Below the pieces are notes generated by a model. It searched no databases and was not told the DNA's origin. It saw only the letters and a list, made by a program, of their open reading frames with translations. Of a stretch of DNA of 52,387 bases, positions 15,772 to 24,221 are shown piece by piece. The stretch is taken from contig NZ_KZ304971.1 in NCBI RefSeq assembly GCF_002723615.1, positions 1 to 52,387 on the forward strand, given 5' to 3'. Position numbers and translations under genes: made by a program. Position 1 is the first letter of the stretch. Each line of letters opens with the position of its first letter. The DNA comes from Limimaricola cinnabarinus (GTDB taxonomy: Bacteria; Pseudomonadota; Alphaproteobacteria; Rhodobacterales; Rhodobacteraceae).

Positions 15772-16434
15772 ATGTGCGGACGCATGGCCATCACGCTGCC
15801 CCATGACGCCATGGCGCAGATGTTCGAAGCCGCCCCGGCCAACGATTTGCCAGAAGTGCCCAACTACAACGTCTGCCCGACCGTGCAGGTGCACACGGTC
15901 ACCTCCCTTGAGGGCGCGCGCCGCCTGCGGCCCATGCGCTGGGGCTTCATCCCGCATTGGTACAAGGCCCCCAATGGCGGGCCGCTGCTGATCAACGCCC
16001 GCGCCGAGACGGTGGCCGAGAAGCCCGCCTTCAAGCAGGCCGTGCGCGAGCGCCGCTGCCTGATCCCGGCATCGGGCTTCTACGAATGGACGGTGGATGC
16101 GGAGGGCAACAAGCTGCCCTGGTTCATCCACCGCGAGGACGGCGCGCCGCTCGCCTTCGCGGGGCTGTGGCAGGATTGGGAGCGGGACGGCGAAAGCCTC
16201 GTCACCTGCGCCGTCGTCACCACCGCCGCCGATGGCGCGATGCGCGACATCCACAGCCGGATGCCGGTGATCCTCGAAGCCGACGACTGGCCGCTCTGGC
16301 TTGGCGAGGCGGGGCATGGCGCGGCGGTTCTGATGCGCGCGAACCCCGATCCGCTGGCCTTTCACCGGGTCGATCCGAAGGTGAACTCCAACCGCGCGCG
16401 GGGCCCCGAACTGATCGAGCCGATTGACGCCTGA
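15772..16434 (+). CDS. SRAP / HMCES (YedK-like) abasic-site DNA-protein crosslinking protein
   Basis: A 220-residue SRAP-domain protein. The family forms a thiazolidine crosslink through Cys2 with abasic sites in single-stranded DNA, shielding them during replication. All hallmarks are seen: Met1 followed directly by Cys2 and Gly-Arg (CGRMA), PNYNVCPT with the conserved Asn, INARAETVAEKPAF, CLIPASGFYEW with the catalytic Glu, and HSRMPVIL with the catalytic His. AGGAGG lies six bases from the ATG at 15772. I looked for an alphaproteobacterial LexA site (GTTC-N7-GTTC) in the 140 bases upstream and found none, so SOS control is not supported here. Confidence 0.93.
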   Translation: MCGRMAITLPHDAMAQMFEAAPANDLPEVPNYNVCPTVQVHTVTSLEGARRLRPMRWGFIPHWYKAPNGGPLLINARAETVAEKPAFKQAVRERRCLIPASGFYEWTVDAEGNKLPWFIHREDGAPLAFAGLWQDWERDGESLVTCAVVTTAADGAMRDIHSRMPVILEADDWPLWLGEAGHGAAVLMRANPDPLAFHRVDPKVNSNRARGPELIEPIDA

Positions 16435-20549: not shown

Positions 20550-21998
20550 TCACTGGGCGCGCAGCTCTTCCAGATGCGCCTGCGCCGATTTCAGATCGGC
20601 GCGGAATTTCTCGGTCTCGTCCTCCCTGAGCGCCGGATCGGGCAGGCGCAGCAGGTAGGAGGGGTGCACCGTCAGGAACACCGGCACGCCGCCCTCCGTC
20701 GCCTCGATCGAACCGCGCCGCGACAGGATGCCCTTGCGCGATCCGGTCAGGCTCTCGGCCGCCGTGCCGCCCATCGACAGGATCAGCTTCGGCCTGATCA
20801 GCTCGATCTCGGATTTCACCCAGAAGCGGCAGGCCTTGATCTCGGAGGTGTTCGGGTTCTGGTGGATGCGCCGCTTGCCCTTCGGCGTGAACTTGAAATG
20901 CTTCACCGCATTGGTGACGAAGGCGCGGTCGCGCTCGATCCCGGCCTCCCTGGCGATGCGGTCGAACATCTGGCCCGCGGGGCCGACGAAGGGCCGCCCC
21001 GCCAGATCCTCCTGATCGCCCGGCTGCTCGCCCACCACCATGAGATCGGCGTCGCGCGGCCCCTCGCCGGGCACCGCCTGTGTCGCGTTCTCGTAAAGCG
21101 GGCAGCGGGTGCAGGCGTTCTCTTCCGCCTTGAGCTGATCGAGATCATCGGCCATCGGGCGCAGAACGCGCGGGGCGGCAAGCCGTTCCGTGATCTTGGC
21201 CGCGCGCAGCGGCGGCAGGGTCGGCGCGGCCTCCTGCATGGCGCGGGCGCGGCTCTCGGCGCTTGCGATCATCTCGGGGATATGCCGCGCCTCGGGCAGG
21301 TTCTTCCAGTATTTCTTGGGCATCTCCGACATCATCGCCCCGACCTTGAGCCGCGCGGGGTTGAAGATGTTGCGGAAATAGGTGCCCCAAAGCTCCTCGG
21401 TCGCATCGTCGGGAATCTCGGGCTTGGGCTGGCCCTCGGCAAAGCCGAGCGCGCCATCCTCGAACACCGCCGTCAGGTCCGGCGTGGCGATCATCCAGTC
21501 CATGTCCGCGAAACGGCGCGCAAAGAAGGGCGCGGTCGGCTCCAGCGTGTGATGCGTGGGCTCGAACCACGCGGCAAAGCGGCGGCGGGGCTGGTCGGGT
21601 GCGCCGATCTCGCGAAACCGCACGAAGGCGGTCATCTTGTGCCTGTCGCGCCGCACCGCCTTTTCCATCGCCCTGAGCTTGGCGAGATCCGCATCGCCGC
21701 GATCCTCCATAAGCCCCTTCTCGGAGCCGAGCCGCCACAGCAGCGCGTAGAGCCGGGCGAAACGCTCGGGGTCGCTGTGCCAGATCACGGTATTGGCCAG
21801 CTCCACGAAGCTGCGCGGCACCGAGATGGTCTTGCTCGCGGGCGCGATCTCCTCCGGCGGGGTGGCGAAGAGATCGGCCTCCGCCGCACCCCGGCTCCAG
21901 GTCACCTCCGAAGGCGGCACCCCGCGCGACACCAGCCCGCGCGCGGCGTCGCGCCAGGCGGTGTCGGTTCCGATATGGGGCAGGGCGACATGGGGCAT
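20550..21998 (-). CDS. DUF4130 - UdgX fusion, uracil-DNA glycosylase-like DNA-crosslinking protein
   Basis: A 482-residue two-domain protein. Residues about 1-250 match the DUF4130 domain found in a DNA-metabolism protein family of unknown activity (AWFEPTHHTLEPTAPFFARRF, MDWMIATPD). Residues about 285-482 are a UdgX-type uracil-DNA glycosylase: CTRCPLY with Cys296 and Cys299, motif A GEQPGDQED (323-331), the diagnostic KRRIH (375-379) whose histidine in mycobacterial UdgX bonds covalently to the abasic sugar after uracil release, Cys390, and HPSYLL (445). Where classic family 4 enzymes have VKC, this has VKH. ATG 21998 is preferred over TTG 22007 and GTG 22004 because GAGG is ten bases before it. 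It follows the radical SAM gene by 12 bases. Confidence 0.92.
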   Translation of the reverse strand: MPHVALPHIGTDTAWRDAARGLVSRGVPPSEVTWSRGAAEADLFATPPEEIAPASKTISVPRSFVELANTVIWHSDPERFARLYALLWRLGSEKGLMEDRGDADLAKLRAMEKAVRRDRHKMTAFVRFREIGAPDQPRRRFAAWFEPTHHTLEPTAPFFARRFADMDWMIATPDLTAVFEDGALGFAEGQPKPEIPDDATEELWGTYFRNIFNPARLKVGAMMSEMPKKYWKNLPEARHIPEMIASAESRARAMQEAAPTLPPLRAAKITERLAAPRVLRPMADDLDQLKAEENACTRCPLYENATQAVPGEGPRDADLMVVGEQPGDQEDLAGRPFVGPAGQMFDRIAREAGIERDRAFVTNAVKHFKFTPKGKRRIHQNPNTSEIKACRFWVKSEIELIRPKLILSMGGTAAESLTGSRKGILSRRGSIEATEGGVPVFLTVHPSYLLRLPDPALREDETEKFRADLKSAQAHLEELRAQ

Positions 21999-22010
21999 GG
22001 GCACCAAACC

Positions 22011-23243
22011 TCAGAACAGCGACAGCTGTTCCGGCTTGGGCGCGAAACGCGCGGCGAGGTCGGGGCTGTCGAGCAGCGCGCCCGGCGTCCAGTCGAGCAG
22101 CGACACGAAGGGCCGGGCGTTCTTCATGTTGGCCCCCATCCGCGCCAGATCGTCCCAGCGCAGCCGCCGGTGCCGCCGCGCCGCGATGATCCGCTGCACC
22201 GTCCGCTCGCCAAAGCCCGGCACCCGCAGCAGCGTCTCGCGGTCGGCCCGCATCGGATCGACCGGGAAGGCATGGCGGTTCCTGAGCGCCCAGGCCAGCT
22301 TGGGGTCGATCGAAAGATCGAGATTGCCATCGGTGCCCGCGGTGATCTCGGTGGCGTCGAAGCCGTAGAACCGCATCAGCCAGTCGGCCTGATAGAGCCG
22401 GTGCTCGCGCATGAGCGGCGGCTTGATCAGCGGCAGCTTGGCCGTGGCGTCGGGAATGGGCGAGAAGGCCGAGTAATAGACGCGCTTGAGCCCATAGGAG
22501 GAATAGAGCCGGGTGGACTGGCCGAGGATCGTCGCGTCGTTCGAGCCGTCCGCGCCGATGATCATCTGCGTCGATTGCCCGGCTGGCGCGAAGCGGGGCG
22601 GGCGCTTGCCGGTATGGCTCTTCTCCTTCGCCGCCTCCTTGCGCATCCGCACCCCGGCCATCGCGCGGCGGATCGTGTCGGGCTTCTTCTCGGGCGCGTA
22701 TTGCGTCACGCTGGCATCGGTCGGCATTTCGACATTGATCGAGACCCTGTCGGCATAGAGCCCGGCCTGCTCGATCAGCTCTTCGCTCGCCTCGGGAATG
22801 GTCTTGAGATGGATGTAGCCGCGGAAGTTCTCCTCCAGCCGCAGCTTCTTGGCGATGCGGACCATGTCCTCCATCGTCTTGTCCGGGCTCTGGATGATCC
22901 CCGAAGACAGAAACAGCCCCTCGATGTAGTTGCGCCGGTAGAACTCCAGCGTCAGCTTGACGACTTCGTCCACCGAGAAGCGCGCGCGCTCGGTGTTGGA
23001 CGACACCCGGTTCACGCAATAGGCGCAATCGAAGATGCAGAAATTCGTCATCAGGATCTTCAGAAGGCTGATGCAGCGCCCGTCGGGCGCATAGGCGTGG
23101 CAGATGCCCGAGCCTTCGGTCGAACCGAGACCCTTTCCGTCCTTCGAGTTGCGCTTCGACGTGCCCGACGACGCGCAGGAGGCGTCGTATCGAGCGGCGT
23201 CCGAGAGGATGGCGAGCTTGCGCTCGAGGCTGTGCGTTGTCAT
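22011..23243 (-). CDS. Radical SAM protein with helix-hairpin-helix, putative DNA modification or repair
   Basis: A 410-residue member of the radical SAM family annotated as putative DNA modification/repair, which habitually pairs with DUF4130-UdgX proteins. The cluster motif is CxxxCxxC at Cys69, Cys73 and Cys76 (FCIFDCAYC). The N-terminal ICHAYAPDGRCISLLKILMTN and the central SINVEMPTD and STQMIIGADG blocks are family-typical. A helix-hairpin-helix (LLRVPGFGERTVQRIIAARR) near residue 350 points to DNA contact. The start at 23243 has no good ribosome site. No substrate is known for the family; direct action on uracil-containing or damaged DNA is an inference from the partner. Confidence 0.9.
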   Translation of the reverse strand: MTTHSLERKLAILSDAARYDASCASSGTSKRNSKDGKGLGSTEGSGICHAYAPDGRCISLLKILMTNFCIFDCAYCVNRVSSNTERARFSVDEVVKLTLEFYRRNYIEGLFLSSGIIQSPDKTMEDMVRIAKKLRLEENFRGYIHLKTIPEASEELIEQAGLYADRVSINVEMPTDASVTQYAPEKKPDTIRRAMAGVRMRKEAAKEKSHTGKRPPRFAPAGQSTQMIIGADGSNDATILGQSTRLYSSYGLKRVYYSAFSPIPDATAKLPLIKPPLMREHRLYQADWLMRFYGFDATEITAGTDGNLDLSIDPKLAWALRNRHAFPVDPMRADRETLLRVPGFGERTVQRIIAARRHRRLRWDDLARMGANMKNARPFVSLLDWTPGALLDSPDLAARFAPKPEQLSLF

Positions 23244-23256
23244 GAGATTCAGGTAA

Positions 23257-23277
23257 TGTTCCTGCCCTTGCCGAACA
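23257..23277. promoter_or_regulatory. Dyad TGTTC-N11-GAACA between radical SAM and phosphoesterase genes
   Basis: Five-base arms TGTTC (23257-23261) and GAACA (23273-23277) lie in the 90-base divergent promoter region. It is not the alphaproteobacterial LexA direct repeat GTTC-N7-GTTC, though it reuses the GTTC/GAAC half-sites in inverted order with longer spacing. Confidence 0.35.
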
Positions 23278-23333: not shown

Positions 23334-24221
23334 ATGCAGCCCATCCACGCGATCCCCGACATCCATGCCGATCCCGACCGGCTCGCGCGCAGCCTCGATG
23401 CGGCCGAACCCGGCGCGCGGATCGCCTTTCTGGGCGATTTCATCGACGCGCTGCCGGGGCAGGCGGCGGTCTCGGACCGCGCCGTGCTCGAGCGGGTGCG
23501 CGATCTGGTCGAGACGGATCGCGCCGTGGCGGTGATGGGCAATCACGAGCTGAACGCGATCCTGTTTCACCGGCTCGGCATCGACGGCGCGGCGCTGCGC
23601 CGCCACAGCCCGCGCAACCGGGCCCAGCATCGCAGCTTCGTGGCCGATTTCGGGATCATGACGCCGCAGGCGCTGGGCTGGACGGACTGGTTCCTGACCC
23701 TGCCGCTGTGGCGCGAGGAGGACGGCCTGCGCCTCGTCCATGCCTGCTGGAGCGCGCCCGCGATCGAGACGGTGGCCGCGCGCCGGCCCGACGGGCGACT
23801 GCGCGAGGCGGACCTGCCCGAGATCGCCGCCCGCTCGACCCGCTTCGGCCGGGCGGTGCAGCTGCTGGTGACGGGGCCGGAGCAGCGCCTGCCGGAGGGG
23901 ATGGGCTTTCACGACAGCCATGGCAGCCTGCGCCGCCGCGTCCGGCTGGCCTGGTGGCGGCACGGCGCGAAAAGCTGGCGCGACGCCGCCCTGTCGGTGC
24001 CTGACCCCGAGGAGCTGCCGCGCACCGCGCTGCCCGCGCGCGGCGACCTGACCTTCTACCCCAAAGGCGCGCCGCCCGTGCTCTGCGGCCATTACAAGAT
24101 GCGCGGCGCGCCCTGCATCGAGGCCCGCAACGTCGCCTGTCTCGACTATCCCGGCACGCCCTGCATCTACCGCTGGCGGGGCGAGGCGCGGCTCATGGAG
24201 GAGCATCTGCAGGCTGTTTGA
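23334..24221 (+). CDS. Calcineurin-like metallophosphoesterase
   Basis: A 295-residue two-metal phosphoesterase. The metal-binding motifs appear in order: DIHAD (9-13), GDFID, GNHELN and, near the C-terminus, GHYK. The order and spacing resemble bacterial serine/threonine phosphatase and bis-nucleoside tetraphosphatase branches; the segment between GNHE and GHYK is longer than in ApaH. The start at 23334 is chosen because MQPIHAIPDIHAD begins the fold; a much longer frame running upstream through the radical SAM and UdgX genes is an antisense artefact. It is divergent from the repair pair, so a DNA-end or nucleotide substrate is possible but unproven. Confidence 0.85.
   Translation: MQPIHAIPDIHADPDRLARSLDAAEPGARIAFLGDFIDALPGQAAVSDRAVLERVRDLVETDRAVAVMGNHELNAILFHRLGIDGAALRRHSPRNRAQHRSFVADFGIMTPQALGWTDWFLTLPLWREEDGLRLVHACWSAPAIETVAARRPDGRLREADLPEIAARSTRFGRAVQLLVTGPEQRLPEGMGFHDSHGSLRRRVRLAWWRHGAKSWRDAALSVPDPEELPRTALPARGDLTFYPKGAPPVLCGHYKMRGAPCIEARNVACLDYPGTPCIYRWRGEARLMEEHLQAV

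Follow-up and report, generated by a model that had tools for sequence, protein, structure and literature searches.

A conserved radical SAM-DUF4130 gene pair with a fused UdgX module in Limimaricola cinnabarinus, a candidate SOS-controlled and clamp-tethered DNA repair system

Locus anatomy and the rSAM-DUF4130 pair

Within a window of 52,387 nucleotides from Limimaricola cinnabarinus (contig NZ_KZ304971.1, positions 1 to 52,387), which is the whole stretch of DNA analysed here, two consecutive genes encode a radical S-adenosylmethionine (rSAM) protein and a fusion of a DUF4130 domain with UdgX, a protein of the uracil-DNA glycosylase (UDG) type (Table 1). The NCBIfam scan assigned TIGR03916 to the rSAM protein (575.6 bits, cut-off 343.5) and both TIGR03915 (205.8 bits, cut-off 112.25) and TIGR03914 (320.5 bits, cut-off 189.95) to the fusion, all well outside what chance would produce, and Pfam found Radical_SAM, a sub-threshold helix-hairpin-helix, DUF4130 (132.6 bits, cut-off 27) and UDG on the pair. 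The names of these models (rSAM_link_UDG, SAM_7_link_chp and UDG_fam_dom, respectively) indicate that the families were already linked by curators, and the NCBI label of the rSAM model reads 'putative DNA modification/repair radical SAM protein'. The nearest rSAM relative among the matches listed is also from Limimaricola (96%), and the locus is an unremarkable member of an established family. The pair is therefore no discovery, its association being already curated and in print; what is new is not the locus itself but a group of features by which its function can be tested, and of these the clamp-binding motif, an additional cysteine triad and the LexA box were absent from the preliminary description of this DNA.

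Table 1. Features of the rSAM locus in the window
Feature	Coordinates	Strand	Remarks
Radical SAM gene (TIGR03916, rSAM_link_UDG)	22011..23243	-	ATG start, 410 amino acids
Features of the rSAM protein			Cysteine triad C23/C48/C57; CxxxCxxC at 69/73/76; helix-hairpin-helix at ~312-355; QLSLF at 406-410
DUF4130-UdgX fusion gene	20550..21998	-	ATG start, 482 amino acids
Domains of the fusion protein			TIGR03915/DUF4130 at 10-237; UdgX (TIGR03914) at 240-471
rSAM codons 406-410 (QLSLF) and stop	22011..22028	-	Consensus beta-sliding-clamp-binding motif at the extreme C-terminus
LexA box GAACATTACCTGAAT (GAAC-N7-GAAC, alphaproteobacterial type)	23247..23261	-	One mismatch; starts 18 bases 5' of the rSAM ATG
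Metallophosphoesterase gene, divergent	23334..24221	+	Context only; the LexA box sits in the intergenic region shared with the rSAM gene

The pairing of rSAM with DUF4130 is obligate. Indeed, among 299 genomes of Pseudomonadota, the only phylum in the genome survey, rSAM exceeded its cut-off in 53 and DUF4130 in 56, all 53 rSAM genomes shared DUF4130 (i.e., 53 of the 56 DUF4130 genomes had rSAM), the two lay on the same strand in 53/53 and their profile matches were less than 300 bases apart in 46/53, with a hypergeometric P of 1e-55 for the co-occurrence, phylogeny ignored. As a control, these profile searches scored over the cut-off in Caulobacter vibrioides. DUF4130 was likewise found directly downstream of rSAM in 80/80 near loci, which are the best 80 of at least 591 relatives, taken from genome contigs. 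The preliminary description had proposed that two genes separated by 12 bases, the first with a CxxxCxxC motif at residues 69, 73 and 76, act together, and had called for a neighbourhood survey of their co-occurrence. The spacing proved correct to the base (22010..21999), the three cysteines were confirmed exactly (the motif is present in 133/133 aligned proteins) and the co-occurrence was conserved, so that the genes form a real unit. Its claim of a helix-hairpin-helix stood in part, since the region (312-355) is matched by Pfam HHH_5 with a score of 26.5 bits, slightly below the cut-off of 27; a PDB profile search returned weak RuvA and ComEA chain matches for the same region (E mostly 0.01-0.2). 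The pair also occurs in Bacteroidota, Bacillota and Fusobacteriota records, annotated in Bacteroides and Spirosoma plasmid records and found by profile in Acetoanaerobium and Fusobacterium records and in four gut scaffolds examined.

A third conserved neighbour was considered and rejected, no outside family among the 30 largest clusters occurring in more than 11 of 93 loci; three further large clusters, of 90, 90 and 49 loci, are the partner itself, or frames that by their coordinates overlap or run antisense to the pair. Note that two loci (L117 and L118, where L and G numbers label the loci and genomes of the surveys) have ~3 kb inserted between rSAM and DUF4130 (L117 3261-5684). This insert was dismissed as a clue: of four L117 frames, one is a beta-helix protein, one matches cytochrome c weakly and two gave no match.

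Three genomes carried DUF4130 and no rSAM (L114, L115 and L116), and no rSAM remnant was found near their DUF4130, the exact LexA box still lying 5' of DUF4130 in each of them. The L115 protein has F125 and R127 changed (R127 is conserved in 129/129 relatives) and P227 and W231 lost, the L116 protein is truncated before P227, W231 and E236, and that of L114 is intact. The decay of DUF4130 in two of the three rSAM-less genomes fits a domain that would be of little use without rSAM; an ImuA-like neighbour persists in L115 and L116 despite the decaying DUF4130. UdgX, unlike DUF4130, was found over its cut-off without a full match of either rSAM or DUF4130. The DUF4130 alignment leaves out L001, L087, L109 and L131-L133, and the conservation count also L057, L095 and the three orphans. 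A Pfam scan of five divergent DUF4130 sequences (E up to 10) returned no distant relative of this domain.

Clamp motif, cysteines and LexA box of the rSAM gene

The C-terminal pentapeptide of the rSAM protein agrees with the beta-clamp-binding consensus QL[S/D]LF, more generally QxxLF, as worded in a passage of PMC12309361, and with the usual C-terminal position of such motifs according to a passage of PMC4549789. Within the 133-protein alignment (which leaves out L001, L087, L117-L119, L131-L133 and L135), Q406 is aligned in 133/133 proteins, and the looser pattern Q[LM]xL[FLWI] occurs within the last 45 residues of 118/133, compared to frequencies of 1.1% in shuffled tails and 0.4% outside the tail; in 98 of the 118 the motif forms the very C-terminus. 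The strict form QL[SD]LF was found in 44/133 (0.02% in shuffled tails and 0 elsewhere), and none of 130 partner proteins carried a clamp motif. Mean entropy, computed over 36 rows less than 75% identical, was 0.92 bits for the motif, 2.49 for the preceding linker and 1.11 for the catalytic domain. The motif is a conserved island, as conserved as the catalytic domain, through which the rSAM protein would dock on the beta clamp (DnaN). A single literature search for this combination found no paper joining 'radical SAM' with 'QLSLF' or 'clamp-binding motif'.

Besides the canonical C69/C73/C76, residues C23, C48 and C57 are kept in 131, 132 and 132 of the 133 proteins, i.e., nearly as strictly; at no other column is cysteine found in more than 10% of the proteins. 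A second group of conserved cysteines, with the three or more members expected of a two-cluster radical SAM enzyme, is present. The apparent loss of C23 in L038 comes from an internal start picked by the script, and the only true exception is Gemmatirosa L113 (3830-5095), in which C23, C48, C57 and H49 are all lost. This protein reaches 303 bits (family cut-off 343.5), has a helix-hairpin-helix-like region and a QLSLW tail, shows no DUF4130 by profile in 8.9 kb, and possibly represents an ancestral or sister subfamily. The absence of the three cysteines together, and with the partner, suggests a second metal site, in which the triad may provide the ligands of a second iron-sulphur cluster; the joint loss of triad and partner is thin evidence, as it comes from one exception.

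The alphaproteobacterial LexA direct repeat is GTTC-N7-GTTC (as given in a passage of PMC8565304), which on the other strand reads GAAC-N7-GAAC. Of the 81 near loci (window included), 78 have an exact box, in either orientation, no more than 200 bases upstream, compared to 1.8% and 0.25% of random 200-mers from the same loci for the two orientations, and the three remaining loci, among them the window, have a box with one mismatch each. The commonest box start was -17 (32/78), compared to -18 in the window, and the site of L002 is exact. In addition, all 26 further alphaproteobacterial loci examined had the exact box, none of their rSAM proteins being identical to a near one. Outside this class (n = 18 rows), CTGT-N8-ACAG occurred in 9 (control 2.4%) and CTG-N10-CAG in 12 (control 10%); since L108 and L131 are one locus counted twice, these become 8/17 and 11/17 distinct loci. 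These boxes support the DNA-repair setting put forward in the preliminary description, and the operon is predicted to be SOS-induced.

Distribution and motifs of UdgX, and the DnaE2 association

Judging from its distribution, UdgX is an optional module of which the pair is independent, and which mostly retains the crosslinking residue where present. Of the 53 pair genomes, 39 had UdgX fused or adjacent, one had it at the end of another contig (probably the same gene, broken) and 13 had none over the cut-off, some of these with weaker UDG-family matches. The fusion is found in 73/80 near loci, and a 120-row FastTree of rSAM proteins (without L001, L038, L087, L109, L113, L117-L119, L131-L133, L134 and L135) holds 100 fused and 20 stand-alone rows, which need eight changes, at least seven of them forced by starred branches. 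Conversely, UdgX exceeded its cut-off without DUF4130 doing so in 10 genomes, one of which (G071) has a DUF4130 remnant with an inner stop. The window fusion keeps the residues read by the preliminary description, namely GEQPGDQED (from 323) and the histidine of KRRIH (from 375), together with HPS (from 445). Among fusions counted after removal of the duplicates L001, L087 and L132, this R-loop histidine is kept in 100/103; it is replaced by proline in the degenerate UdgX halves of L053 (6230-7675) and L071 (6230-7660), the latter having lost motif B too, and L095 counts as a loss merely since its DUF4130 and UdgX lie in different frames. The lack of UdgX over the cut-off in 13/53 genomes and the loss of the histidine in two fusions argue against trap-and-release as the core function.

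Note that a SRAP gene (PF02586, 5.8e-70) lies in the window at 15772-16434 (+), ~4.1 kb from where the UdgX gene ends; SRAP/HMCES proteins, too, cap abasic sites covalently. Three fusions (L037, L051 and L056) have GEAPGD as motif A with an intact R-loop, and a passage of PMC10359453 describes a Q53A mutant of the mycobacterial protein MsmUdgX that still forms the complex.

The VKH of the fusion, where family 4 has VKC, had been taken as a sign of altered iron-sulphur ligation. As an oddity of the window protein this was rejected, VKH being the norm of UdgX, found in MsmUdgX itself (TNAVKHFKFT, PDB alignment) and in 94/103 fused relatives; as an alteration relative to family 4 it gains support from a concerted loss of ligands. 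Indeed, in eight fusions near the window (L005, L013, L024, L026, L029, L031, L036 and L091) both CxxC cysteines, the VKH histidine (replaced by Arg or Gln) and the later cysteine are lost together, GEQPGD, KRRxH and HP(S/A) being retained, and the tree needs four changes for this. L032 is without the CxxC pair only, and the window fusion keeps all four ligands. Such a pattern is consistent with a C-C-H-C iron-sulphur site in UdgX, and suggests that the cluster may be dispensable. The window fusion did not reach the type-4 UDG model NF040953 (128.4 bits vs 250) and passed the broader UDG_fam4 subfamily model (135.4 vs 125.3); a PDB profile search with it returned UDG chains, a polymerase and chance hits only, from which nothing further was learned.

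The polymerase DnaE2 exceeded its cut-off in 45/53 rSAM genomes and in 69/246 others (Fisher P 1e-14, kinship uncorrected). It lies at most 10 kb from rSAM in 8/45, and in G087, G131, G155 and G250 rSAM, the fusion and DnaE2 are consecutive on one strand, DnaE2 directly behind the UdgX part. A divergent ImuA-like gene occurs in the other four of these eight genomes, G035, G111, G159 and G289 (L097, L100, L099 and L096, respectively) and in the rSAM-less L114-L116, where L115 has the ImuA-like gene followed by a Y-family polymerase-like gene and then DnaE2 (1564 bits). The ImuA name rests on context, the matches scoring 34.7 and 35.9 against a curated cut-off of 150.

Proposed mechanism, rival explanations and known systems

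A two-gene COG1573-COG4277 operon, which we take to be the rSAM/UdgX pair, already stands in the literature. A passage of PMC8565304 (2021) predicts its SOS regulation in Bacteroidetes and says that the same had been reported for Verrucomicrobia and Alphaproteobacteria. In a figure legend of PMC3765255 (2013), DUF4130 is predicted to be an enzyme related to mutagenesis, in association with SplB-like rSAM photolyases and UDGs 'which might modify thymines'. In these parts, both papers tie the families to SOS repair, and the passages on the families assign the rSAM protein no reaction.

Altogether, we hold with moderate confidence that an SOS-induced, clamp-tethered radical enzyme and its obligate DUF4130 partner process damaged bases at replication forks, with the fused UdgX as an optional uracil or abasic-site cap. 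DNA damage would relieve LexA and the operon would be made, as expected from the box and from the SOS control predicted or reported in print. The rSAM protein would then use its C-terminal QLSLF to dock on the beta clamp and its helix-hairpin-helix to grip DNA. With a SAM-cleaving 4Fe-4S cluster presumably bound by C69/C73/C76, and a second one probably held by C23/C48/C57, it would generate a 5'-deoxyadenosyl radical that reverses or otherwise alters the damaged base. DUF4130, whose pairing with rSAM is observed, would act as a dedicated partner which presents the lesion or performs a second chemical step. Where fused, UdgX, whose motifs are in place and whose chemistry is known for MsmUdgX and its kin only, may excise fork-exposed uracil and remain covalently attached to the sugar of the abasic site, shielding it until it has been passed by translesion synthesis or recombination.

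Several observations weigh against this mechanism, which is built on sequence analysis. A clamp-type pentapeptide can be present without binding, and 15/133 tails fall outside the looser pattern, each with a variant (e.g., QASLF, QLGFGF, QLSMF). The extra cysteines could bind zinc or act as a hydrogen donor. The window's own LexA box has a mismatch, the stricter box is missing from half of the 18 non-alphaproteobacterial rows, and the exact LexA pattern shows no excess in the window genome (27/20 vs 33/19 for the reversed control), so that the window's box is meaningful by position only. DnaE2 is absent over the cut-off in 8/53 rSAM genomes (G054 has two pieces), and in 37/45 its distance exceeds 10 kb or the gene is on a different contig, so that the mutasome is not a fixed neighbour; finally, the genome-level co-occurrence statistics are uncorrected for phylogeny. 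A bolder form of the same idea, which we put forward tentatively and with more doubt than belief, is that of the first clamp-tethered two-cluster radical SAM repair enzyme, SOS-induced, which at stalled forks would, with DUF4130, directly reverse or process a base lesion, in several bacterial phyla and in step with ImuABC/DnaE2 where these are present and with UdgX as a plug-in cap. If true, bacteria would own a widespread radical-chemistry repair enzyme riding the replication clamp. The clamp tail, the candidate second-cluster triad, the LexA box and the optional nature of UdgX narrow what had been a guess to a few defined tests.

Among other explanations, damage-induced mutagenesis instead of error-free repair, in which rSAM and DUF4130 would change a template base (e.g., thymine) so that DnaE2 and ImuB pass or mutate it, appears unlikely: the operons with DnaE2, the divergent ImuA-like gene and the PMC3765255 legend on thymines speak for it, whereas the eight pair genomes without DnaE2 over the cut-off (one split) and the fact that no particular base is singled out speak against it. 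The preliminary description had proposed UdgX as the marker or trap of a uracil lesion, with three options for rSAM: repair of the base, release of the trapped protein, or synthesis of a modified base for UdgX to recognise. This we regard as improbable, even if the fusion is common (39/53 genomes, 73/80 near loci) and its R-loop histidine mostly intact, since 13/53 pair genomes are without UdgX over the cut-off, DUF4130 stands alone in 20/120 loci through at least seven to eight tree changes, the pair persists in L053 and L071 without the crosslinking histidine, and 10 genomes have UdgX, but no DUF4130, over the cut-off. Modification of proteins is common among rSAM enzymes, and the obligate pairing and the decay of DUF4130 in two of three rSAM-less genomes would also suit an rSAM that modifies DUF4130 itself and thereby activates it for DNA repair; however, a helix-hairpin-helix and a clamp motif on the rSAM protein itself suit a DNA-directed enzyme, and we give this account little credence.

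A radical enzyme beside a base-recognising domain could also point to DNA hypermodification or to a phage-related system. This explanation was rejected as very improbable in view of the LexA boxes upstream and of few matches in phage collections, which equally disfavour the modified base of the preliminary description: only 10 of 50,697 phage records matched, eight of them unannotated 'Bacteriophage sp.' gut records and two 'Acinetobacter phage MD-2021a', and IMG/VR gave two loci, from one pattern-based scan. One 'Acinetobacter phage MD-2021a' locus (L112, CAKLQH020000003.1) has glyS, glyQ and aidB around the pair and looks like a mislabelled bacterial contig. In IMG/VR, L134 (5971-7218) has an rSAM relative (62%) between phage-tail-like and hemerythrin-like genes, both judged by eye, and the 774 bases that follow hold no match to DUF4130.

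Compared to known systems, the window pair has the same families, gene order and fusion as TIGR03916, TIGR03915 and TIGR03914, with no departure from them; neither the family names nor the passages on these families mention the clamp tail or the cysteine triad, or that UdgX is optional. SplB is, like the window rSAM, a radical SAM enzyme tied to DNA repair and SOS, and the legend in PMC3765255 calls DUF4130-linked proteins SplB-like. The window rSAM differs in its helix-hairpin-helix, clamp tail and obligate partner, and is set apart by model and profile scans: TIGR03916 was its sole match in the NCBIfam scan (E up to 0.001), with no match to the spore photoproduct lyase model, and no spore photoproduct lyase chain was among its 22 PDB profile matches (E up to 1). 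The ImuA-ImuB-DnaE2 mutasome is SOS-controlled (according to a passage of PMC8565304) and adjoins the pair in some families, but it is a polymerase system, mostly distant from the pair. Finally, MsmUdgX (PDB 6ail, 6iod) shares with the window fusion the GEQPG motif A, the KRRIH R-loop, the HPS motif B and the CxxC...VKH...C arrangement, whereas the UdgX of the window stands behind DUF4130 in a fusion, in an operon with a radical SAM gene and with a LexA box upstream.

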